A stretch of DNA of 64,000 bases, taken from the NCBI RefSeq assembly GCF_006974105.1, contig NZ_CP036282.1, positions 1,860,001-1,924,000 on the forward strand, read 5' to 3'. Positions 19,766-54,468 of this stretch are shown piece by piece (the stretch's first letter is position 1; the number at the start of each line of letters is the position of its first letter). A program made the translations under genes and the position numbers. Under the pieces are notes generated by a model. The model did no database searches, was not told the origin of the DNA, and saw only the letters and a program-made list of their open reading frames with translations. The DNA comes from Rhodoferax aquaticus (GTDB lineage Bacteria > Pseudomonadota > Gammaproteobacteria > Burkholderiales > Burkholderiaceae_C).

Positions 19766-20899
19766 CTATGGGCGATCAGCAAACTGCAGCTGAATGCGGG
19801 CACGCTCAGCAGTTGCCTCCATCAGCACGCGTACGCACTCGCCATCGAGCCGTCCGCTGGCCACTTCTTGGTCCAACTCTTGGATAATGTGCGCTTCAGT
19901 CCAGGCTGGCTTATAGGGCCGAACATTGGAAAGCGCGTCATACACATCCGCCACAGCGACTATACGGGCCTCCAGCGGAATCTGGTCCATCAGCAGCCCA
20001 TGCGGGTAGCCAGAGCCATCACCACGTTCATGGTGGCAGGTGACGATATTGCGCATAACATCAAAGGCCAAACCATTCTCCATCTGCAAATCGCACCCCA
20101 TCTGCACAACAATGGATTCACCGATCGCTACATGGCGGCGCATGATCACCCACTCATCTCCGTCCAGCTTGCCAGGTTTGAGCAAAACCCTGTCGGGGAT
20201 GCCCACCTTGCCCACATCATGAAGCGGAGCGAACAGAAATACGTACTCAATGAATTCGTCAGTCAGCGAGTGACTTTCTGCCAGCTTGAGCGCCATCAAA
20301 TGCGAGTACGCGGCCATGCGCTCCAGATGTTGGCCGGTTTCAAGATCGCGAATGCGCGACAGGCCACTTGCCATTTGTACCGTGCCCACCATGCCGCTGA
20401 CTACCTGCAGCTGCAGCAAATACAGCTGCGCGATCAGGTGCGAAAACATCTCCAAAAACTCGGTCATGTCCGCACTAAAAAAATGCGGCTGCTTGGAATC
20501 AAAAAACAAAAAACCTGCCAGCTGATTCCCCTTAAAAATCGGCACTGTCAAGCTGGAGCGGTAGGCATGCCGCTTGAGCCAGTCGGTGTGTTGAGTTGAG
20601 GCCGCTAGGCTCGTATCAATGTCATCCACTACCCGACTCATTCGCCCGTCCGCCAGCACCTTTAAAGAAGGCACATTTTGCAACTTGGCCTCGTAATGGT
20701 CCAGGTGCATGCCATCGCGGTTGCTGCTGACGAAGGTCTTGAGTGCATCGGTGCGCGGGTCGTAAGCGGCCAGAGCCACCCTGTCGATACCTGGGTAGCG
20801 AGAGCTAATGGCACCGTGGACGGTTTTTAGCTGGGACTCCAGATTGGCTGAGGCCGGAGTCGCAGCACCGCCTAGGGCATGGTAGGTCGTGCTAGTCAT
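19766..20899 (-). CDS. GAF - HD-GYP domain protein (putative c-di-GMP phosphodiesterase)
   Basis: This 377-residue protein has a GAF-like sensor at about residues 25-165 (SRYPGIDRVALAAYDPRTDA; SSLTVPIFKGNQLAGFLFFD) and an HD-GYP domain at about 175-370. Metal and catalytic motifs are ETGQHLERMAAYS, FAPLHDVGKVGIPD, HHERGDGSGYPHGL and ARIVAVADVYDALS. HD-GYP proteins hydrolyse cyclic di-GMP, mostly to GMP, and control motility, biofilm and virulence. No transmembrane segment is seen, so it is cytosolic. Its ATG overlaps the stop codon of a small upstream gene (ATGA), so the two are translated together. Confidence 0.9.
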   Translation of the reverse strand: MTSTTYHALGGAATPASANLESQLKTVHGAISSRYPGIDRVALAAYDPRTDALKTFVSSNRDGMHLDHYEAKLQNVPSLKVLADGRMSRVVDDIDTSLAASTQHTDWLKRHAYRSSLTVPIFKGNQLAGFLFFDSKQPHFFSADMTEFLEMFSHLIAQLYLLQLQVVSGMVGTVQMASGLSRIRDLETGQHLERMAAYSHLMALKLAESHSLTDEFIEYVFLFAPLHDVGKVGIPDRVLLKPGKLDGDEWVIMRRHVAIGESIVVQMGCDLQMENGLAFDVMRNIVTCHHERGDGSGYPHGLLMDQIPLEARIVAVADVYDALSNVRPYKPAWTEAHIIQELDQEVASGRLDGECVRVLMEATAERARIQLQFADRP

Positions 20900-21392: not shown

Positions 21393-22460
21393 ATGACACA
21401 GATTACAGAACTATCTCCCGGTTTGGTGTTGCAAAACACGTTGTCACAGTCCTCCCTCAAGGACTACAAGTTGATAGCTTTTGATATGGACTCAACGCTG
21501 ATCAACATAGAGTGTGTTGATGAAATTGCGGACGTGGTCGGGCGCAAAGCAGAGGTTGCTGCCATCACGGATGCAGCGATGCGTGGGGAAATCACCGATT
21601 ACAAGGACAGCCTTCGCCGACGTGTCGCTTTGCTAAAAGGCGTTACTGTTGCTTCAATGCAAGAAGTGTATGAAACCCGGTTAAAGCTTAATCCTGGCGC
21701 GGTAGAGCTGGTTCTTGCTTGTAAGGAAGCAGGATTAAAAATTCTTTTGGTCAGTGGTGGTTTTTCTTTCTTTACAGATAGGATTCGCGATCGCCTAGGT
21801 ATTGACTTCACGCGTTCAAACGTTCTAGGAGTGGTTGATGGAGTGTTGACAGGGGCCTTGATTGACCAGCCATGGGGAGACATATGCGACGGTGAAGAGA
21901 AACGGAAAATGCTCCTGTGGACCTGCGGAGAGCTTGGAATTTCTCCCAGTCAAGTGATTGCCGTAGGTGATGGCGCAAACGATTTGCCCATGATGTCTAC
22001 AGGCTGCCTGTCCGTCGCTTATCACGCAAAACCTGCTGTACGAGAGCGGGCAAACATCGCGATTAATGAAGGTGGTTTAGATCGCTTGCTCGAGGTTGTA
22101 CGCCCTTATGCGCAGGCAAAACCAAAATCGCTGGACTTATCCGTATTAGATGATTTGGTGGGTGGGGATCCGGCCAAGTTTCGCAAGTTCGCTATGCTGT
22201 TTATCAGCTCCTTGGGCGATGTGCTTTCGCAGGTAGATGCTGCGGTCGCTGCAAGCGACTTGGCGACTCTGGCCGCTATGGGGCACCGCGCAAAATCTAC
22301 TGCCATGAACATCGGTGCTGCTGAGTTCTCTGAACAATGTCTTTTGCTTGAGCAAAGCGCAAAAGCCAACCAAGTCGATAGTGCTCTTAGGATTGCACAT
22401 GGGTTGCGACCGTTGTTCGACGGTATCAAAGCGGAAATCGATCTCCGACTTGCTAGTTAG
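21393..22460 (+). CDS. serB: Phosphoserine phosphatase SerB fused to a C-terminal HPt domain
   Basis: Residues 1-237 are a complete SerB of the HAD superfamily: nucleophile motif FDMDSTLINIECVDEIA, motif II SGGFSFFTDRIRDRLG and motif III/IV VIAVGDGANDLPMM, ending DRLLEVVR where the ordinary enzyme stops. It dephosphorylates phosphoserine, the last step of serine synthesis. The frame then runs on through a short Ala/Pro/Lys linker into an HPt domain (about 248-350): LDLSVLDDLVGGDPAKFRKF, a helical pair, and MGHRAKSTAMNIGA, where His298 fits the phospho-accepting HPt histidine. The total is 355 residues against the usual roughly 236. ATG 21393 is used. It converges on a receiver gene 18 bp away. 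The fusion is seen directly; a signalling role is inference. Confidence 0.92.
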   Translation: MTQITELSPGLVLQNTLSQSSLKDYKLIAFDMDSTLINIECVDEIADVVGRKAEVAAITDAAMRGEITDYKDSLRRRVALLKGVTVASMQEVYETRLKLNPGAVELVLACKEAGLKILLVSGGFSFFTDRIRDRLGIDFTRSNVLGVVDGVLTGALIDQPWGDICDGEEKRKMLLWTCGELGISPSQVIAVGDGANDLPMMSTGCLSVAYHAKPAVRERANIAINEGGLDRLLEVVRPYAQAKPKSLDLSVLDDLVGGDPAKFRKFAMLFISSLGDVLSQVDAAVAASDLATLAAMGHRAKSTAMNIGAAEFSEQCLLLEQSAKANQVDSALRIAHGLRPLFDGIKAEIDLRLAS

Positions 22461-22478: not shown

Positions 22479-22913
22479 CTAGGCTAGCTTATTGATAAGT
22501 TGCAGTAGAGCTGTTTTATCTACCGGTTTGGATAAAGTGCCCAATAACGTAAAGCGACGTAGTTGGGCTACTAGTGACGCCGAGTGCATGACGTCACTTG
22601 CTTGGCCAGAAACAATGATCAACGCACCAGCAAAACCGCCTTTAGCGACGGCGGCCATGAACTCAAACCCATCCATTCCCGGCATGTGCAAATCACTCAA
22701 CATCAAGTGAAAAGGTGCGTTTGCCTTTGCCTTGGACAGAGCGCTCAGCGCTTGCTCCCCACTAGCTGCTGCAACGATATCTAGTATCCCCAGTCCTTTG
22801 AGGGCTTCAGCAATAACTTCCAACTGAAATGGGTCATCGTCTACTACCAAGACTCTGAGAGCCTCGCGCGTTTTGGGGAGGTCGCCAACTGGCTTTGCGT
22901 TGAGTGTGTTCAT
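22479..22913 (-). CDS. Stand-alone CheY-like response regulator
   Basis: This 144-residue single receiver domain has the acidic pair in RVLVVDDDPFQLEV, phospho-acceptor Asp74 in LMLSDLHMPGMDGFEF, the Ser/Thr position in ALIIVSGQA and Lys in GTLSKPVD. There is no output domain, so it should act by protein contact or as a relay intermediate. It lies 12 bp downstream of the chemoreceptor-like gene in the same direction and ends 18 bp from the convergent serB-HPt gene. It closely resembles the lone receiver at 43743-44180, including the MPGMDGF and SKP segments. Confidence 0.92.
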   Translation of the reverse strand: MNTLNAKPVGDLPKTREALRVLVVDDDPFQLEVIAEALKGLGILDIVAAASGEQALSALSKAKANAPFHLMLSDLHMPGMDGFEFMAAVAKGGFAGALIIVSGQASDVMHSASLVAQLRRFTLLGTLSKPVDKTALLQLINKLA

Positions 22914-22925
22914 TTGTGATTAGGC

Positions 22926-24053
22926 TCACCGGCGGGTGCGCACGTGGTTCTGATCTTCCATGGTGTACGTCTTGCTCAAACTTCCCATCCATTCTTCCAC
23001 GGTTGGTAGGGGTTCGTCTAGGTTGTCCTGCATCCGCTTCATATCGGCTTCTACACCGCTAAGAATTTGCGACACACGATCCTGAAACTGCATGGCCATC
23101 AGCAGGTTTTCCACTTCGTGCCGCACCGTAAGCCCATGGCTTCGCATGGAGTCTGCGGAGGCGCCCAACTTTCGTACATGGTTAAGGACATCTTCCACAA
23201 TGGAGCCGGACATAGAGACGGCATGTTGGTCTTGCGCGTTGGACTCTTCGGCGGATGCCATGGTTTGTGCCATGACGGACACTACCTGATCCACCCTAGT
23301 GCCAATTTTCTTGCCGGTTTCAGCTGAACGTTGCGATAGCTTTCTTACTTCTGCGGCTACCACGGCAAAACCTCGCCCTGATTCACCTGCTCTAGCTGCT
23401 TCAATAGCGGCATTAATTGCCAGCAAGTTGGTTTGGGCGGCGATGCTGCTAACGTCGGCCGCCATGGCCCGAAGTTCATTCGTTTCATTGGCGAGGTGGC
23501 GAATGTTTGAAATCATAGTGTCCTTACCCTCAATGACCGAGGTTAAGGAACCTACCACTGGTTGCAGCTGACGCTCGCACAGAGTTAGCAGGCCAATGGT
23601 GCTGTTGCTAGAGTCGGGGCTTAAGCCGGGGCCTGAGCCAATGCCAGCAAGGTCAAATTGCTGGAGTACCGTGGCAAAGCTGGTGGTCAGTTGCACCACT
23701 GCTCCCTCCGTCTGGGACTTGACGGCGCTAACGTGGTGTTGCCACGCCGGCAGCACCTGCTTGAGCAGGTCACTGAGATCATCTGCAGAGTAGGGTGGGG
23801 CAGAGTCTTGTGACGATGCGCTGCCTAGTGCATATCTTTCCTCGATAGTAGATCCGCGTTGCCATTGCAACATGACGATGACCACAACGACAAAGACTCC
23901 GACCAAGCTCAGCCAGCGTAGCCACATGGCGTCATCCACAAGTGCAGGGATTGTTACCAATCCAGTGGCAACTAGCACTAGCACCCAAGTTAGCGCTGTG
24001 GGCGGGGCCATGCGATTGCTTTGATCGCCTTGGGCCTCGTTGATTTGCGACAT
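22926..24053 (-). CDS. Methyl-accepting chemotaxis-like protein without a periplasmic sensor domain
   Basis: This 375-residue protein has two closely spaced transmembrane helices (about residues 20-39 and 43-62), leaving no room for a periplasmic ligand-binding domain. A cytoplasmic region follows, with the chemoreceptor hairpin [21 protein letters not shown] (about 205-225) and [18 protein letters not shown]. The C-terminus has [15 protein letters not shown] 24053 has AAGGGA upstream. It probably senses a membrane or cytosolic signal and controls a CheA-type kinase or the neighbouring receiver. The receiver gene follows at 12 bp, so the two form an operon. No cheA, cheW or cheR lies in the window. 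Confidence 0.87.
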
Positions 24054-24177
24054 AAGTGGCGGTCCCTTAAAAAATTTCAACACCGCGTGTACGTGGCACG
24101 CTCTGAGTAAAACTTTCGGCCCTTTTCATTCCCCTGTGGCCAACGAGGAGGGCTCTTAAAACAATAGTACCTAGTTT

Positions 24178-26559
24178 CTACAAGATTGGGAATACCGGTG
24201 AGCTCAGCCATTTCAACAAAGCGCTGTACAACTCGCCGGGGTCTACGGGCTTAGAAACAAAATCATTCATCCCTGCATCGATACATGCTCTGCGATCTTC
24301 TACAAAAACATTGGCAGATAAGGCCAAAATTGGCGTGTGTTCTTTGCCCGGTAGTTGGCGTATGTGCTTGGTCGCTTCCAGCCCGTTCATGATAGGCATC
24401 TGCACATCCATCAAAATCAGGTCATAGTGGCTTTGGATCACCTGCGCCACTGCATCTTTCCCATTGGCCGCAGTGTCCACTGCAAAGCTGATCTCCTTGA
24501 GGTAGTCTGCCGCGATCTCCCGGTTGAACGGATCATCGTCTACGACGAGAATGCGGGCGCTCGGAAATTTGCACTGCAGCAGTAATTCAGCGTCCTCCTG
24601 GGCGTCTGTTGTCGCAGGCGTACTATGGCCTTGGATTTGCCTCAAATGGGCGGTGAACCAAAACGTACTGCCCACCCCGAATTCGCTTTGCACGCCGGCA
24701 TCACCTCCCATTAAGTGAGCAAGCCTATGGGTAATTGCTAACCCTAGCCCTGTGCCACCGTACTTGCGGGTTGTGGACGCGTCGGCTTGTTCAAAAGCCT
24801 GGAACAGTCTGGTGACATCGTGGGATTGAATGCCAATGCCCGTGTCAGAAACATCAAACCGAACCACGAGATTGCCATCCTGTGCGTCAACCAAGCGGGC
24901 TGCCAAGTTGACCTGGCCGCGCTCCGTGAACTTGACTGCGTTGCCAGCGTAGTTCAGCAACGCTTGTCTAAGGCGGGTGGGGTCCCCACGCACGGTGGGC
25001 GGGAGGTCTATGCTTGTGGTGTGGACGGAGAGGCCCTTTTCGCGGGCGGATGGCGTGATGATGGTCGCAACGCTGTCTACCAATGCCTGAATCGAGAACT
25101 CTGTGTCTTCAAGCTCTAGACGACCCGCTTCGATTTTGGATATATCCAAAACGTCGCTGATGATGGAGAGTAGATGCTGCCCCGCACTGTTGATTTTGTT
25201 GAGTCGTTCAATTTGTTGTGCGGTGGGGCTCTCCCTGCGCAGCAGGTTGGAGAAGCCCAAAATTGCATTCATCGGCGTTCTGATTTCATGGCTCATGTTG
25301 GCCAAAAACTCGCTTTTTGCGAGGTTGGCGGCATCAGCTTGCTGACGTGCTGCAATCAGTTCTGTGGTTCTTTGCACCACCATTTCTTCCAAGTGATGGC
25401 GGTGTCGGTCTAGCTCTTCGCCGAGTCGTTTGCGTTCTGTGATGTCTTCGTTGACAGCTACATAGTGGCTGATCGAACCGTCTGGCTGTCGTAAGGGAGC
25501 AATGATCGCGAATGAGATGTACTCAGAACCATCTTTGCGACGGTTGTGAAACTGACCTTGCCAAGTTTTTCCGTCGCGCAAGCTTTCCCAAAGACTGATG
25601 TAGGTCTCCGCAGGTGTGTTTCCGGACTGTAGTAGCTTTGGATTCTGTCCGATGACCTCGTTCAGGGCATAGCCATTGTTATGAATAAAGGACTCGTTTA
25701 CATACTCGATGCGCCCAAGCGTGTCCGTGATAACGATCATTTCGGGGCTTTGGGCAACAGCCTGAGAGAGTTTTCGCAACTGGTTCTGCGCTGCATGCTG
25801 CTCTGTCAAATCACGCACCACACCAATGAAAGTGGTTTGACCGCCCCGAATGCTTTCTGACACGGACAAACTCATGGGGAAGTGCTCTTTGTTTTTACGC
25901 ACTCCAATCACTTCGCGGGATCGACCTAAGACATAGGCTTTGCCTGAGCTACTGTAAGACAGCAAAGCCGCATCGTGTTCGGCTAGGTCTTGGGGGGACA
26001 TCAAAATGGAGACGTTTTGCCCCACAATTTCCTCTTGGCCGTAGCCAAAGATTCGATTGGCCGCTTTGTTGAATGACTCTATGACACCGGTGGCATTGAT
26101 GGTGATCAGTCCGTCCACCATGTTGTCCAAAATGGCTTGCGTATGTAATGCGGACTCACGCAACTTGGTTTCTGCCTGGTGCTTGTACAGCGCCATCTCC
26201 AGTACGGTGCGTAGCTCTTGTTTGGCACAAGGCTTGACGATGAATCCAAAAGGCTCAGCGAGCTTGGCTCTGGCAAGCACATCTTCATCCGCCGTAGCGG
26301 TTATGAAAATGACGGGCACCGCAAATTGGTTCCGTATAGCCACCGCGGCAGCAATGCCGTCCATCGCCCCGGCAAGTTGGATGTCCATCAAAACCAAGTT
26401 TGGCTTCAAGGTGCCTACAAGGTCTACAGACTCTTCGCCCAATGCTGATTGGCCAATGTGGTCATAACCTAGGTCAAGCAGTTGGCGCTTGATAAAAAGC
26501 GCGCTGATAGGCTCATCCTCGACGACCAATATCCTCGGCTTGTTACCCGCAGAATCCAT
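24178..26559 (-). CDS. Hybrid histidine kinase (REC-PAS-PAS-HisKA-HATPase-REC)
   Basis: In this 793-residue cytosolic protein an N-terminal receiver (Asp59, LVLMDIQLAGAMDG) precedes two PAS domains (about 137-250 and 265-385, with FNKAANRIFGYGQEEIVGQN and YVNESFIHNNGYALNEVIGQ). The HisKA box carries His424 in NMSHEIRTPMNAILGF. The HATPase has N box QALLNYAGNAVKFT and G boxes DTGIGI and GGTGLGLAI. A second receiver (Asp718, LILMDVQMPIMNG) ends the protein. ATG 26559 follows a strong AGGGGGCGG site. No transmembrane helix and no HPt domain are present. Hybrid kinases of this type normally pass phosphate from the C-terminal receiver to a separate HPt; the only nearby candidate is the SerB fusion. 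Confidence 0.93.
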   Translation of the reverse strand: MDSAGNKPRILVVEDEPISALFIKRQLLDLGYDHIGQSALGEESVDLVGTLKPNLVLMDIQLAGAMDGIAAAVAIRNQFAVPVIFITATADEDVLARAKLAEPFGFIVKPCAKQELRTVLEMALYKHQAETKLRESALHTQAILDNMVDGLITINATGVIESFNKAANRIFGYGQEEIVGQNVSILMSPQDLAEHDAALLSYSSSGKAYVLGRSREVIGVRKNKEHFPMSLSVSESIRGGQTTFIGVVRDLTEQHAAQNQLRKLSQAVAQSPEMIVITDTLGRIEYVNESFIHNNGYALNEVIGQNPKLLQSGNTPAETYISLWESLRDGKTWQGQFHNRRKDGSEYISFAIIAPLRQPDGSISHYVAVNEDITERKRLGEELDRHRHHLEEMVVQRTTELIAARQQADAANLAKSEFLANMSHEIRTPMNAILGFSNLLRRESPTAQQIERLNKINSAGQHLLSIISDVLDISKIEAGRLELEDTEFSIQALVDSVATIITPSAREKGLSVHTTSIDLPPTVRGDPTRLRQALLNYAGNAVKFTERGQVNLAARLVDAQDGNLVVRFDVSDTGIGIQSHDVTRLFQAFEQADASTTRKYGGTGLGLAITHRLAHLMGGDAGVQSEFGVGSTFWFTAHLRQIQGHSTPATTDAQEDAELLLQCKFPSARILVVDDDPFNREIAADYLKEISFAVDTAANGKDAVAQVIQSHYDLILMDVQMPIMNGLEATKHIRQLPGKEHTPILALSANVFVEDRRACIDAGMNDFVSKPVDPGELYSALLKWLSSPVFPIL

Positions 26560-26722
26560 CCACCGCCCCCTGATCAAGACATACAGTGATATTTGTCACG
26601 GAAATCAGCGGCCAATGTAACCGAACTTCAGTGCGCAAGGGGGCAAAAAAAGACCCGTAAGCGCAGCCTATCGTGCCTGGTATGGATGTCTGCACACTTT
26701 GGTGGCGTCAGTACTTGAAGCA

Positions 26723-29700
26723 TTACGCCGTTGCATCCTCTTTCGGTTGCCCAAGGGACTTGAGAACATCCCTGACCATTTGGGTACGGTCTGTGGTTTT
26801 GGGGAGTTCGCGTTCGATGCGTAGCTTTTCATTGCCCGCCAGCTTGATGTGTTTGTTTTTCTGAATCAGCTCAATGATGCGCATCGGGTCCACGGGCGGA
26901 TTCTTCTTAAACGTAATGGTGATGACCCCGGGCGCGGCATCCACCTTCACAACGCCATAGGGTTTGGCAATCACCCGCAAGCGGTGCACATCAATCAGTG
27001 TCTGCGCTTGGGCGGGGAGCTTGCCAAAGCGGTCTACGATTTCTTCCAGCAGCGCGTCAATTTGGTTGGAGTTTTTGGCAGTTGCCAGCTTTTTGTAGAA
27101 GCTCAGGCGCAGGTGCACATCACCACAGTAGTCATCCGGCAGCAGGGCCGGCGCGTGCAAATTAATGTCGGTGGTGACATTCAAGGGACTTAGCAAATCC
27201 GGCTCAATGCCCGCTTTGAGACAGCGCACGGCTTCACTCAGCATTTCGTTGTAAAGCTGAAAGCCTACTTCCAGCATGTTGCCGCTTTGGCTTTCGCCCA
27301 ACACCTCGCCCGCACCACGAATTTCCAGATCGTGCATGGCCAGGTAAAAGCCGCTGCCCAGTTCTTCCATGGCTTGAATAGCGTCTAAGCGCTGGGTCGC
27401 TTGTTTGGTCAAGCCTTCGAGGTCAGGCACCATCAAGTACGCATAGGCTTGGTGGTGGCTGCGGCCCACACGGCCCCGCAACTGGTGCAACTGTGCCAAG
27501 CCAAATTTATCGGCCCGACTCATCACAATGGTGTTGGCGGTAGGGACGTCAATCCCGGTTTCGATGATGGTGGAGCACAGCAGCAAGTTGCTGCGCTGTG
27601 CCACGAAGTCGCGCATCACAGCTTCAAGTTGGCGCTCCGGCATTTGGCCATGCGCAACCGCAATGCGCGCTTCAGGCAACAGTTCTTCTAACTTCGCGCG
27701 GCGGTTTTCGATGGTTTCCACTTCGTTGTGCAAGAAATACACTTGCCCGCCGCGCTTGAGCTCACGCAGCACGGCTTCGCGGATCACGCCGTTACCTTCG
27801 GTGCGCACAAAGGTTTTGATGGCCAAACGGCGTTGTGGTGCGGTGGCAATCACACTCAAGTCGCGCAGGCCTTCCAAGGCCATTCCTAAGGTTCGGGGAA
27901 TAGGGGTGGCTGTCAGCGTGAGCACATCCACCTCGGCACGCAAAGCCTTCATTTGCTCCTTGTGGCGCACGCCAAAGCGGTGCTCCTCGTCGATGATCAA
28001 TAGCCCCAAATTCTTGAATTTGGTGGACTCGCTCAACAGTTTGTGGGTGCCCACCACGATATCGACCGTACCGTCGGCCACACCCTTGAGTGCCGCCGTG
28101 ATTTCTTTGCCTGAGCGAAAGCGGCTCATCTCAGCCACTTTCACCGGCCACTTGCTAAAGCGATCTGACAGGGTTTGGAAGTGCTGCTCAGCCAGCAGCG
28201 TGGTGGGCGCCAACAGCGCCACTTGCTTGCCACCGGTGACCGCCACAAAGGCGGCACGCAGCGCGACCTCCGTTTTGCCAAAGCCCACATCACCGCAGAC
28301 CAGCCGGTCCATGGGGCGGGGGCTGATCATGTCTTGGATGACGGCGTGGATGGCGGCCGCTTGGTCTGGTGTTTCGTCAAAACCAAAGTCATTGGCAAAG
28401 GTTTCGTAGTCCGACGGCGAATAGCGGAAAGCGTGCCCTTCGCGGGCGGCGCGCCGCGCATAAATGTTGAGCAATTCCGCCGCGCTGTCGCGCACCTGCT
28501 CAGCGGCTTTGCGTTTTGCTTTTTCCCATTGGCCAGACCCGAGCTTGTGCAAGGGGGCTTCGTCCGCACTCACGCCGGTGTAGCGGCTGATGAGCTGCAG
28601 CTGGCTCACGGGCACATACAGTGTGGCTTGGTCGGCGTATTCCAAATGCAAGAACTCTTGCAGCTCCGGCTCGCCTTGTGCGTTGCGCTGGCCTAGGTCC
28701 AGATTGATCAAGCCACGGTAGCGCCCGATGCCGTGGGCCGAATGCACCACCGGGTCACCCAGGTTGAGTTCACTCAGGTCTTTGATGAGCGCTTCTACAT
28801 CGCTCACCTGCTCTTGTTTTTTGCGACGGCGGGTGCTTGGGCCTGCCGCAAACAGCTCAGTCTCCGTAATCAGGTCAATGCCAACTTCCAGCCAGCTAAA
28901 GCCAGTGGTGAGCGCCGCTGTGGCAATGCCGGTTTTCTCGTCGCTGGCCAAGAATTCGTCGAGCGAATCAAACGCTGGCGGGCTCACGTTAGAGGCGCGC
29001 AAAAAGTCCAACAGGCTTTCACGCCGCCCCGCGCTTTCCGCCAGGATCAGCACACGGTGCTGGGTATTGGCCGCGTGGGCTTTCAAGCGCGCCAGCGGGT
29101 CTTCTGTGCCGCGCAGTACCGTGAGTTCTGGCAGGGGAGCGAACTCGGCGAACACATCTTCGCTCTGGGCTTTGATGGCCAGCTGGGCATGCGCGTTGGC
29201 GCGCCCGTAAAACTGCTCGATGGTCAAAAACAGAGATTCGGGCGGCAGCACCGGGCGCTCTGGGTCCGTTTGCACCAAGCGGTAGCGGTCTTTGGTGTCT
29301 TGCCAAAAGTGCTGGAAGGCAGGCTCCAGCTCCCCATGCAAGACCACGGTGGCGTCTGCACCCACATAGTCAAAGACGGTGGCTGTATCGTCAAAGAACA
29401 ATGGCAGGTAGTACTCAATGCCTGCCGTGGCCACGCCATTGCCCATGTCTTTGTAGATGCGACTGCGCGTAGGGTCTCCATCCAATAGTTCGCGCCAGCG
29501 GCTGCGGAACTTGGCCCTGGCATCGTCGTCCATGGGGAATTCTCGGCCCGGTAACAGCCGCACTTCGGGCACTGGGTACAAGCTGCGCTGGCTGTCGGGG
29601 TCAAAGGTGCGGATGCTGTCGATCTCGTCGTCAAACAAATCAACCCGGTAAGGTACCAAGCTCCCCATGGGGAAGAGGTCTATCAACCCCCCGCGCACCG

Positions 29701-30196
29701 CATACTCGCCAGGGCTCACCACCTGGGTGACATGGCTGTAGCCTGCCAAAGTGAGTTGGCCTTTGAGTTTGGCTTCGTCCAGCTTTTGCTTGACCTTGAA
29801 CTGGAAGGTGTAGCCCGCCAAAAAGCTTGGGGGCGCCACCCGGTACAGCGCGGTGGTCGCAGGCACGATGACCACGTCTGCTCCATTTTCCTTGTCGCGC
29901 TGGCTGATGCGCCACAGGGTGGCCAAGCGCTCACTGATCAGGTCTTGGTGTGGGGAAAACGTGTCGTAGGGCAGGGTCTCCCAGTCGGGGAACAGGGCAC
30001 AACGCAGGTCGGGGGCAAAAAACGCGATTTCATCCAGCAAACGCTGCGCATCCAGAGCATTGGCCGTGACAACCGCCATGGGTTTGCCCGCTGCCTTTTC
30101 ACGTTGGCCCAAGCGCGCAAGCAGCAATGCGTCTGCAGAGCCACTGGGTTTGGGAAGGGTGAAGCGCTTGCTTTGCTGTAGTTTGGGTAAATCCAT
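26723..30196 (-). CDS. mfd: Transcription-repair coupling factor Mfd
   Basis: Mfd removes RNA polymerase stalled at DNA damage and recruits UvrA. The 1157-residue protein starts at ATG 30196 (MDLPKLQQSKRFTLPKPSGS); a longer reading would overlap the divergent ispD start. The UvrB-like N-terminal module, the polymerase-interacting domain (around VVHSAHGIGRYRGLINLDLG), the Walker A motif CGDVGFGKTEVA (about 632-643), the DEEH box LLIIDEEHRFGVRHKEQ (about 735) and the translocase motif VGRSHHQAYAYLM are all present. The C-terminal TRCF domain completes it. The gene is intact and full length, divergent from ispD with 95 bp between. Confidence 0.97.
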   Translation of the reverse strand: MDLPKLQQSKRFTLPKPSGSADALLLARLGQREKAAGKPMAVVTANALDAQRLLDEIAFFAPDLRCALFPDWETLPYDTFSPHQDLISERLATLWRISQRDKENGADVVIVPATTALYRVAPPSFLAGYTFQFKVKQKLDEAKLKGQLTLAGYSHVTQVVSPGEYAVRGGLIDLFPMGSLVPYRVDLFDDEIDSIRTFDPDSQRSLYPVPEVRLLPGREFPMDDDARAKFRSRWRELLDGDPTRSRIYKDMGNGVATAGIEYYLPLFFDDTATVFDYVGADATVVLHGELEPAFQHFWQDTKDRYRLVQTDPERPVLPPESLFLTIEQFYGRANAHAQLAIKAQSEDVFAEFAPLPELTVLRGTEDPLARLKAHAANTQHRVLILAESAGRRESLLDFLRASNVSPPAFDSLDEFLASDEKTGIATAALTTGFSWLEVGIDLITETELFAAGPSTRRRKKQEQVSDVEALIKDLSELNLGDPVVHSAHGIGRYRGLINLDLGQRNAQGEPELQEFLHLEYADQATLYVPVSQLQLISRYTGVSADEAPLHKLGSGQWEKAKRKAAEQVRDSAAELLNIYARRAAREGHAFRYSPSDYETFANDFGFDETPDQAAAIHAVIQDMISPRPMDRLVCGDVGFGKTEVALRAAFVAVTGGKQVALLAPTTLLAEQHFQTLSDRFSKWPVKVAEMSRFRSGKEITAALKGVADGTVDIVVGTHKLLSESTKFKNLGLLIIDEEHRFGVRHKEQMKALRAEVDVLTLTATPIPRTLGMALEGLRDLSVIATAPQRRLAIKTFVRTEGNGVIREAVLRELKRGGQVYFLHNEVETIENRRAKLEELLPEARIAVAHGQMPERQLEAVMRDFVAQRSNLLLCSTIIETGIDVPTANTIVMSRADKFGLAQLHQLRGRVGRSHHQAYAYLMVPDLEGLTKQATQRLDAIQAMEELGSGFYLAMHDLEIRGAGEVLGESQSGNMLEVGFQLYNEMLSEAVRCLKAGIEPDLLSPLNVTTDINLHAPALLPDDYCGDVHLRLSFYKKLATAKNSNQIDALLEEIVDRFGKLPAQAQTLIDVHRLRVIAKPYGVVKVDAAPGVITITFKKNPPVDPMRIIELIQKNKHIKLAGNEKLRIERELPKTTDRTQMVRDVLKSLGQPKEDATA

Positions 30197-30291
30197 GGAT
30201 GGCTTTGGCGCAGTGCAAGCAACCATTGGCGTTGCTTGGGTGCAGGTTTTAGTTGGCTTGGTGCGTTCGATTTTAGAATGGCACGCGCACC

Positions 30292-31023
30292 ATGACTGAC
30301 ACAACTCCCATATCCTTGAAAAACACCCCGCCTCCCGCGCGCCTTTGGGCGCTAATTCCTTGTGCAGGCACCGGCTCCCGCTCCGGCGCTAGTGGCCCCA
30401 AGCAGTACCAAAGCGTTGCGGGCAAGCCCATGGTGTTGCACACCTTGCAAGCGTTCGCGGATGTGCCCCGCTTGGCGGGTGTGCTGGTGGTGGTGTCTGC
30501 GGGCGATACGTTTTTTGAATCAGTAAATGCTCCTGTATTGGTAGCGGCTTGTGGCGGTTCTACAAGGGCTGCAAGCGTTTTTAATGGTTTGCAGGCCTTG
30601 CTAGACCAAGGCGCCGACGCCCAAGACTGGGTACTGGTACACGATGCCGCACGCTGCTTGCTCACTCAGCAACAGGTTGATCATTTGATCGACCAGTGCT
30701 TACCTGATGCCGTGGGTGGACTCTTGGCACTCAAGCTGCCCGACACCTTGAAGCGCGAAGAAGGCGGGCGCGTGGCGGGCACGGTAGACCGTGCAGACAA
30801 ATGGTTGGCCCAAACGCCACAAATGTTTCGCTTAGGTGCCTTGCAAAGCGCATTGCTAGCCGCGGGAGACGCAGTAACCGACGAGTCCAGCGCCATGGAG
30901 TGGGTGGGTCAGCGGCCCTTGCTGGTGGAGGGCAGTGCCCAAAATTTCAAGGTGACCTACCGCCAAGACTTCGCGCTGGCTGAAGCCATTTTGCGAGCCC
31001 GCACACTGTCGGCCACCAGCTAG
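30292..31023 (+). CDS. ispD: 2-C-methyl-D-erythritol 4-phosphate cytidylyltransferase
   Basis: IspD adds CMP to MEP in the non-mevalonate isoprenoid pathway. The 243-residue protein has the nucleotide-binding motif ALIPCAGTGSRSGASGPKQY (about residues 20-39), VLVHDAARCLL and TVDRADKWLAQTPQMFRLG. It begins with ATG 30292 and is divergent from mfd. ispF follows 219 bp downstream, giving the usual ispDF pairing but with a spacer that contains a dispersed repeat. Confidence 0.95.
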   Translation: MTDTTPISLKNTPPPARLWALIPCAGTGSRSGASGPKQYQSVAGKPMVLHTLQAFADVPRLAGVLVVVSAGDTFFESVNAPVLVAACGGSTRAASVFNGLQALLDQGADAQDWVLVHDAARCLLTQQQVDHLIDQCLPDAVGGLLALKLPDTLKREEGGRVAGTVDRADKWLAQTPQMFRLGALQSALLAAGDAVTDESSAMEWVGQRPLLVEGSAQNFKVTYRQDFALAEAILRARTLSATS

Positions 31024-47302: not shown

Positions 47303-47537
47303 GGTGTTGTTGGTGCTGCGCCCGTGGGGAGGCCAGTAGTGACGGGTTGATAAATGGGAGTGCCCTGTCGAACAGGGGGCGAATCATAGCTTTGTTGGGC
47401 TTTTTCAAACGCATGCGTAGCCCCACTCCTGAACACCGCTTTTCACGCTGTTTTGGCTTTTCACAAAGACGCCAACATGCGATACTGAAATGTGATTGTG
47501 TGTACGCGTGCGTGCTCTAACCAGACCCAACACCTCC

Positions 47538-48314
47538 ATGAATTCTGATTTTGAATTGCTTTTGGCCGAGTTAATGGCCGAGTTTTTGGACGAGCTTCCC
47601 AGCCGATGCAATGACCTTGAGCAAGCAGTGTTTGCTCTGGAAACGCAGCAAGCGGGAGCATTTGACGAGTTGTTTCGGCAAGTGCACAGCTTGAAAGGTA
47701 CGGGGGGCGGTGTGGGCATCCCCATCATCACGACGGTTTGCCACCAGTTAGAGAGCTTTATTGCTGAATGCAAGCAGCACTTTGACCACGCGGCGGCCAG
47801 CACTGCGTTGGCTTTCGTGGACCTTTTGCGCAAAACCCATGCGCCTGAGGGGCGCGAGCCCACTGCCGTGGCTGAGATTGAGCAAGCCTTGGACCAACTG
47901 CGCGTCAAAAGTCTGCGGGGGCGCACCAGTGTGCTGCTGGTGGAGCCCTCTCAGACGCTGCGCAATTTGTACGAAAAAGAGTTGGCAAGCGCTGCAACCC
48001 AAGTCAAAGTCTTGAAGGGTGGCTTGGATGCGCTGCAACGCTTGCTTCAGGAACCCTTTGACTTGTTGGTCATCTCGCGGGAGCTGCCAGATCTCAACGC
48101 CTTAGCGGTCGTGGCTGCCTTGCGGGAGGCCCGCTGCCGCAACAGTGAAATTCCGGTGGTTCTGGTCAGCAGCAACGCCGCGCCGGTCGCGGCCAGTTTC
48201 GGATTTAGGGCGACGTTGGGGCGCAATGTAAATCTGATCCCAGAGTTGAATCGGCACATTGCCAGTTTGGAGCCCAAACCTGCCGCCAAGACCCACAAGC
48301 GCGGGAGTCATTAG
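47538..48314 (+). CDS. HPt domain fused to a degenerate receiver domain
   Basis: This 258-residue cytosolic protein has an HPt domain (about residues 5-110) with His50 in FRQVHSLKGTGGGVG. A receiver-like domain (about 133-240) follows, but its acidic pair reads VLLVEPSQTL instead of DD, and the phospho-acceptor position is Ser180 (LLVISRELP). The receiver therefore cannot be phosphorylated in the usual way and may be a regulatory or docking module. Such HPt-pseudoreceiver proteins are uncommon. It sits alone between the FMN reductase and AraC genes. ATG 47538. Confidence 0.85.
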   Translation: MNSDFELLLAELMAEFLDELPSRCNDLEQAVFALETQQAGAFDELFRQVHSLKGTGGGVGIPIITTVCHQLESFIAECKQHFDHAAASTALAFVDLLRKTHAPEGREPTAVAEIEQALDQLRVKSLRGRTSVLLVEPSQTLRNLYEKELASAATQVKVLKGGLDALQRLLQEPFDLLVISRELPDLNALAVVAALREARCRNSEIPVVLVSSNAAPVAASFGFRATLGRNVNLIPELNRHIASLEPKPAAKTHKRGSH

Positions 48315-53886: not shown

Positions 53887-54468
53887 CTAGCGTATGCGTG
53901 GTCGTTCACCGGTCGATGCGGCGACCCGCAGGGGTGTTCCTGGACAGGGTGTTGATGCAGTGGGCAGGTCAAAGGCACAGGAATTTGATGGTGTGCAGGC
54001 TTTCAGGCGTGTCACTGCGGCGGCGGCTGAGTTGCCGGTGGCCAGCATGGGGTCCACGACCACCACATCACGCTCTTCCATGTTGCTGGGCATCTTGAAG
54101 TAGTACTCCACGGCTTGCAGTGTTTTGGGGTCGCGGTACAGACCCACATGGCCCACGCGGGCACCGGGCACTACGCTGAGCACCCCATCCAGAATGCCGT
54201 TGCCGGCACGCAGTACGCTGGCGAATACCAGCTTTTTCCCGTCAATGACTTTGCCGGTCGTCTTCTCCAGTGGGGTTTCAATCTCTAGGTCTTGCAGCGG
54301 CATGTCGCGGCAGACTTCGTAAATCATCAGGCCGGCTAGCTCGTTGAGCAGGCGGCGGAAGCTGCTGGTGCTGGCTTCTTTTTTACGCATCAGGGTGAGC
54401 TTGTGCTGCACCAAGGGGTGGTCGATGAGGGTGACGTTGGCGCGGGCTTCTGGGTTTAAGGTAACCAT
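53887..54468 (-). pseudogene. upp: Uracil phosphoribosyltransferase, 3' end frameshifted and lost
   Basis: The first 155 residues are a good Upp: [57 protein letters not shown] and the PRPP loop [18 protein letters not shown]. After KACTP the frame breaks. Continuing sequence in other frames spells TIKFLCL, then LTCP, QEHP and VNDHAYA, as in normal Upp, so there are at least two small indels. The sequence then leaves homology before the conserved uracil-binding GLGDAGDR segment. The gene reads 193 codons but the last 40 residues are nonsense. Start ATG 54468 has AGGAA upstream. The enzyme should be inactive for uracil salvage unless another copy exists. Confidence 0.85.

Follow-up and report, generated by a model that had tools for sequence, protein, structure and literature searches.

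A fused serB gene beside a phosphorelay cassette

The window, by which we mean the whole 64,000-nucleotide stretch of Rhodoferax aquaticus DNA analyzed here, contains a single open reading frame at 21393–22460 on the forward strand that runs from ATG to TAG with no stop inside and encodes a protein of 355 amino acids, in which a complete phosphoserine phosphatase (SerB) and a histidine phosphotransfer (HPt) domain are joined in frame in one chain. Residues 1–236 constitute the SerB part (21393–22100, +), as assigned from its match to TIGR00338, its catalytic residues, and its structural model. A linker of 10 residues (22101–22130, +) then leads into the HPt domain (22131–22460, +), which extends to the stop codon and is a predicted four-helix bundle carrying His298, as assigned by a Pfam match, the model, and alignment. 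The TIGR00338 profile matches residues 20–235 with 215.6 bits (curated cut-off 144.15), and PF01627 (Hpt) matches residues 269–341 with 30.6 bits (gathering threshold 24.6). The motifs FDMDST, VSGGF, GDGAND, and MGHRAKST begin at residues 30, 120, 192, and 296, respectively, the last of these placing its histidine at position 298. A sequence-only reading of this DNA had described an in-frame fusion without stop or frameshift, a SerB with the DMDST, SGGF, and GDGAND motifs, and an HPt domain with His298, and all of these features are borne out. An assembly error or frameshift as the source of the architecture is ruled out, since the same length and the same junction are found in the independent genome G343 and in the database protein P0001, both described below.

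The catalytic residues D31, D33, E40, R77, S121, K170, D193, and D197 are all present in the 3 full fusions that we found. The phosphoacceptor His298 and the lysine 3 residues on (K301) are likewise present in all 3, as well as in all 31 members of a related branch with a shortened SerB. One residue sets the window copy apart: position 205 (22005–22007 of the window) is cysteine here, whereas it is glycine in all 185 stand-alone SerBs and in both other full fusions, so SerB activity of the window copy is not certain. Cys205 could be the start of decay, or it could be a benign change.

An AlphaFold2 model of the 355-amino acid protein has a mean pLDDT of 93.9 and a pTM of 0.74, and the expected HPt fold appears in it as a four-helix bundle (helices 260–286, 290–305, 310–324, and 328–354) with the conserved histidine present. 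By sequence, the closest solved relatives of the SerB part are the SerB proteins 3n28 and 7qpl. NF008350, which describes SerB with PRK11133 at full length, missed its cut-off (210 vs. 413 bits), with profile positions 104–313 of 324 matched best. A Pfam scan (E up to 0.01) for a histidine-phosphatase domain of the SixA type gave HAD-type families and Hpt only.

Convergent with the fusion, across 18 bp of intergenic sequence, lies a gene for a stand-alone receiver (response regulator) protein (22479–22913, −). This is followed in the same cassette by a methyl-accepting chemotaxis (MCP)-like protein (22926–24083, −), as assigned by Pfam and by comparison of loci, and then by a hybrid histidine kinase with the Pfam architecture REC-PAS-PAS-HisKA-HATPase-REC (24178–26577, −). 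Pfam found no HPt domain in this kinase, so that phosphate would have to travel through an HPt elsewhere to get from the kinase to the receiver protein. The fusion is the HPt next door, but with 21 Hpt matches in the window genome (G000), one of them in a frame of 123 amino acids, another HPt could serve the hybrid kinase. G000 is rich in phosphorelay parts in this respect, G343 having 8 such matches, and a second HPt protein lies in the window itself at 47496–48314, where a 272-amino acid frame matches Hpt and, judged by eye, also includes a stretch resembling a receiver.

On its other side, the fusion has as its divergent neighbor a gene with GAF and HD domains by Pfam, of HD-GYP type by eye (19766–20899, −), which we regard only as a candidate member of the cassette. 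Directly upstream of the fusion in G343, and in the same direction, is a gene for a 318-amino acid protein that by eye is a receiver-GGDEF (L066, 105–1058), so that an output through c-di-GMP is possible. A promoter scan gave none, against 1.5 expected by chance, and terminator-like sites numbered 4 against 2.4 expected. Base composition was considered as a mark of insertion and dropped: G+C is 0.49–0.56 at 19–27 kb of the window and 0.56–0.61 at 27–34 kb, but it is also 0.49–0.53 at 14–19 kb, and the low value at 19–27 kb therefore marks no insertion.

Rarity of the full fusion and absence of a second SerB

The same 355-amino acid fusion is present in Rhodoferax sp. MAG_33 (G343, locus L066), which belongs to another GTDB genus, with the SerB part 75% and the HPt part 66% identical to those of the window. 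Locus L066 was located in G461, in which the coordinates of the SerB match are those in G343. A database protein known from one contig, P0001, has the same fusion with 78% identity over 355 amino acids, and another, P0002, differs by eye from the G343 protein in one residue. Between the window and G343, nonsynonymous differences are 0.17 in SerB and 0.24 in the linker plus HPt; since synonymous sites are saturated (0.77–0.78), dN/dS offers no reading of selection and the nonsynonymous level alone was used.

The combination is rare, in keeping with its earlier description as unusual. Within the window’s own genus, only 1 of 103 genomes, G000 itself, aligns across both domains, with 80 having any match and 23 having none. 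The second genus has the full fusion in 1 of 89 genomes (G343) and any match in 76. Family samples of 399, 397, and 398 genomes, which are overlapping draws from a larger group with up to 11 (399 sample) or 6 (397 and 398 samples) candidates scored per genome, gave the full fusion only in G000 and G343. A third strong match in the 399 and 398 samples, G441, is a stand-alone HPt. Together the genome searches covered 1468 genomes, counting repeats.

The sequence-only reading had held that the fusion would be called into question if close relatives encoded SerB as a protein of its own, with no HPt in the vicinity. This is literally what the relatives have, in all 29 same-genus SerB loci, which were examined for matches to this HPt with flanks of about 1.5 kb, or less at contig ends. 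The fusion itself stands nonetheless, and we read the separate SerB of the relatives as the ancestral state rather than as evidence against it. In 17 of these 29 loci, serB follows mfd on the same strand within about 1.5 kb, and among 8 larger loci picked by hand mfd is upstream of serB on the same strand in 7, directly adjoining it in L141, L142, L147, L149, and L150. In the window, the kinase-MCP-receiver cassette occupies the place downstream of mfd, which lies beyond the kinase (26723–30304, −), and the fused serB is inverted relative to mfd. The mfd locus of G343 (L143) gave no serB match. This spot is variable among relatives; in G478, for example, short ORFs that by eye resemble toxin-antitoxin genes lie between mfd and serB (L148, 5783–6994).

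G000 and G343 each have one match to TIGR00338 above the cut-off, and in each it is the fusion. The search for other phosphoserine phosphatases covered HAD families; TIGR02137 (ThrH) had no match in either genome, which is a weak control in that none of 14 control genomes had a ThrH score over the cut-off either. As no stand-alone serB was found in G000 or G343, the fused SerB must presumably stay active in both. In G343, which is a MAG, serC_1 did not pass its curated cut-off, for which either a different SerC family or incompleteness of the MAG might account; G000 has serC_1 above the cut-off.

A branch with a shortened SerB that has lost its active site

A second form of the fusion came from 31 protein clusters, database proteins without visible genome context, in which a shrunken SerB precedes the same HPt. 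This is the commoner form, with 31 examples against 3 of the full fusion. In this pseudo-SerB the cap and motif II are deleted and the nucleophile D31 has become glycine in 31/31, so that the catalytic residues of motifs I–IV together with the cap are partly gone from every member, while K170, D197, and His298 are kept in every one. Mean pairwise identity over 29 rows is 59% in the pseudo-SerB part and 65% in the HPt part, with 36% in the linker. (A3 used 12 of the 31 members and A4 used 29.) A model of one member, P0127, has a mean pLDDT of 89.8 and consists of an HAD-like core and an HPt bundle. No host genome for this form was found among the genus and family genome samples, GTDB contigs, plasmids, or viral contigs. 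Two further proteins, P0153 and P0158, came up as short HPts although their sequences start within the pseudo-SerB part, as read from the sequence for P0153 and judged from a 26-residue extension and the position in the tree for P0158; they were treated as pseudo-SerB members in the AU tests on the HPt tree, stand outside the 31, and are inside the count of stand-alone HPt extensions.

Since all 31 members have lost the nucleophile yet kept the HPt histidine, SerB catalysis cannot be what the fusion is generally for. The SerB fold was conserved after loss of the active site, which suggests that it provides the HPt with a non-catalytic service, probably docking, dimerization, or ligand binding.

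These proteins bear on the idea that the fusion was a chance event in which SerB has no signaling role and which persists because the stand-alone serB was lost, tying an essential gene to the HPt. The rarity of the full fusion (only G000 of 103 and G343 of 89 genomes in their respective genera), the fused copy being the only SerB over the cut-off in both, and the poorly conserved linker (36%) would all be expected of such an accident. A useless passenger, however, should have been deleted in the pseudo-SerB branch, and its 31 clusters instead keep a folded, conserved N-terminal domain after catalysis was lost, which leads us to consider a chance fusion unlikely.

The same proteins count against the possibility that SerB acts on the HPt, either by hydrolyzing phospho-His298 or by being switched through phosphorylation of His298, which would couple serine synthesis to a signal. 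Dephosphorylation of the HPt histidine by the SerB part had been proposed in the sequence-only reading, and as a general reason for the fusion it fails, the 31 shrunken relatives having dispensed with the nucleophile and motif II and retained the histidine. The full fusions do carry both domains intact within one chain in 3/3 cases, but they also have the cap, which in SerB closes over small substrates. A precedent for a phosphatase acting on an HPt would be SixA, a phosphohistidine phosphatase of another enzyme family and phosphatase fold than HAD. SixA was suggested earlier to act on the HPt of ArcB, as related in PMC6282199. We regard an action of SerB on the HPt as quite improbable.

Which part joined, and how often

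Stand-alone HPts of the same family indicate which of the two domains was the newcomer. In L067 (G441), L068 (G496), and L069 (G471), the HPt gene is convergent with a receiver gene, beyond which lie an MCP in 2 of the 3 loci and a hybrid kinase in all 3. In L138, L139, and L140, stand-alone HPts with 43–48% identity to that of the window are convergent with receiver-like stretches. In all 6 loci the HPt thus holds the position that the fusion holds in the window and in L066. A separate serB above the cut-off was found in 3 of the 4 genomes with a stand-alone HPt that were searched (G441, G012, and G460, the last for L069), the search of G459 (for L068) giving none. Because stand-alone HPts share the convergent place and 3/4 such genomes have a separate serB, SerB is the probable newcomer, and the HPt is probably native to the cassette. 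The reverse course, in which the HPt moved to a resident serB, is disfavored by the stand-alone HPts in the same convergent place in the 6 other loci.

The linker is the main ground for inferring one fusion event. Between the end of SerB and the start of HPt there are 10 residues in every one of the 34 fused proteins, full and shortened alike, whereas the N-terminal extensions of stand-alone HPts range from 4 to 39 residues and 96 of 118 stand-alone SerBs have tails of 1–3 residues (another 12 of the 118 stood outside the tail pattern used for the linker comparison). On this sequence evidence, the SerB-HPt fusion probably arose once.

The trees are less straightforward. A full SerB tree of 91 rows, with 67 of 67 genome SerBs and 21 of 118 database SerBs, places the 3 full fusions together with a support of 73. 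In the HPt tree (65 rows, 111 columns), the pseudo-SerB members form one group (87/85) and the full fusions stand in 2 places, with the HPt of G343 grouping with the stand-alone P0154/P0162 (94/77) and the 3 full fusions uniting in 0% of 200 bootstrap trees. A reduced SerB tree (71 rows, 134 columns) was built from 17 of the 31 pseudo-SerB members, a random draw of 30 of the 67 genome SerBs, and 21 of the 118 database SerBs. There again the pseudo-SerB members form one group (100/100) and the full fusions stand in 2 places, G343 with the stand-alone P0033/P0109 (100/80); its starred branches force 2 changes, and the fusions come together in 0% of 200 bootstrap trees. AU tests rejected neither a single clade of full fusions (p = 0.304) nor a single clade of fusions and pseudo-SerB members (p = 0.393 on the HPt tree and 0.167 on the SerB tree). 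The trees, then, lean against the full fusions as one group, and the AU tests do not reject one.

On another reading, SerB would have been recruited repeatedly to this HPt, with separate fusions for G000/P0001, for G343, and for the pseudo-SerB types. The ungrouped full fusions in the HPt tree and in the reduced SerB tree, where 2 changes are forced, argue for this, 0% of 200 bootstrap trees uniting the fusions in each. Repeated recruitment would, however, have to arrive at the same 10-residue linker in every case despite the variable extensions and tails of the stand-alone proteins, the full SerB tree joins the 3 fusions, and the AU tests allow one origin. We therefore hold several independent fusions to be quite improbable.

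A probable phosphatase and phosphocarrier in one chain

The explanation we favor, with a confidence only somewhat above even, is that the full fusion is one protein with two jobs, the sole SerB found in its genome and a phosphocarrier of the relay, and that the SerB fold later became non-catalytic in the pseudo-SerB branch. The SerB half would catalyze the last step of serine synthesis, which is its predicted activity. The HPt half, before the fusion, would have been the free phosphocarrier of the neighboring relay, in which the hybrid kinase would donate phosphate to His298 from the receiver at its C-terminus, and the stand-alone receiver encoded at 22479–22913 would take it over from His298. 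SerB would then have been joined to the HPt of the cassette, probably once. In the branch without an active site, the SerB half would have been shortened with its fold kept, possibly as a docking surface, a dimer surface, or, given that K170 and D197 are retained, a site for a phosphorylated ligand. The fusion, its residues, the genes around it, the number of SerB copies above the family cut-off, and the lost active site of the pseudo-SerB branch were observed directly. Phosphotransfer, SerB activity, a single origin, and the role of the SerB fold are what we infer, and a link of serine synthesis to signaling is possible.

In a more far-reaching account, the phosphorelay captured SerB, a biosynthetic enzyme, as a regulatory domain. 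If SerB in the intact fusions still makes serine and, when bound to substrate, gates His298, then the output of the relay would follow serine flux, and the pseudo-SerB would be a dedicated non-catalytic module for sensing or docking. We consider this account a tentative one, with a modest chance of being correct.

Both domains are of known kinds. The SerB part is like other SerB proteins (TIGR00338; PDB 3n28, 7qpl, and 1f5s) in having the whole catalytic HAD-IB domain, the cap, and all motifs, but here an HPt follows the catalytic domain and a related branch has no active site. Known long SerBs carry ACT domains ahead of the catalytic domain. An ACT domain is named in the title of PDB entry 5jlp. 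Compared with the stand-alone HPts HptB of Pseudomonas aeruginosa (7c1i) and LuxU (1y6d), the proteins here carry an additional N-terminal domain, either SerB or pseudo-SerB. In hybrid kinases such as TorS, ArcB, and BarA, the HPt is the same domain and the relay logic would be alike, but here the HPt lies outside the kinase, in one chain with a metabolic enzyme. Among NCBIfam profiles, TorS matches the HPt part best, its 23.9 bits falling far short of the cut-off of 676.5. SixA and ArcB (PMC6282199) resemble this system in having a phosphatase and an HPt in one proposed circuit, but they are separate proteins, and of the 34 fused proteins described here 31 lack the phosphatase active site.

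Among the literature matches listed, no title or abstract start describes a SerB-HPt fusion, and the available portions of PMC4558063, PMC6282199, PMC7311316, and PMC10542144, among them an HPt survey and a paper on CheA architecture (PMC4558063, PMC10542144), do not mention SerB joined to HPt. Within the literature searched, the combination and the pseudoenzyme branch thus appear new. What they provide is a series on one HPt family, from a free HPt, to an HPt with an active-looking SerB that is the only one found, to an HPt with a shortened SerB that has no active site. With this series, one could test how a metabolic enzyme turns into a regulatory pseudoenzyme and whether a phosphorelay can be tied to amino acid synthesis in one chain. 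It is also a caution that part of a relay may go unnoticed in a protein annotated as SerB.

Elsewhere in the window, an ORF at 53887–54468, which we take to resemble a uracil phosphoribosyltransferase, has a last part unlike the rest of its family and may be frameshifted.
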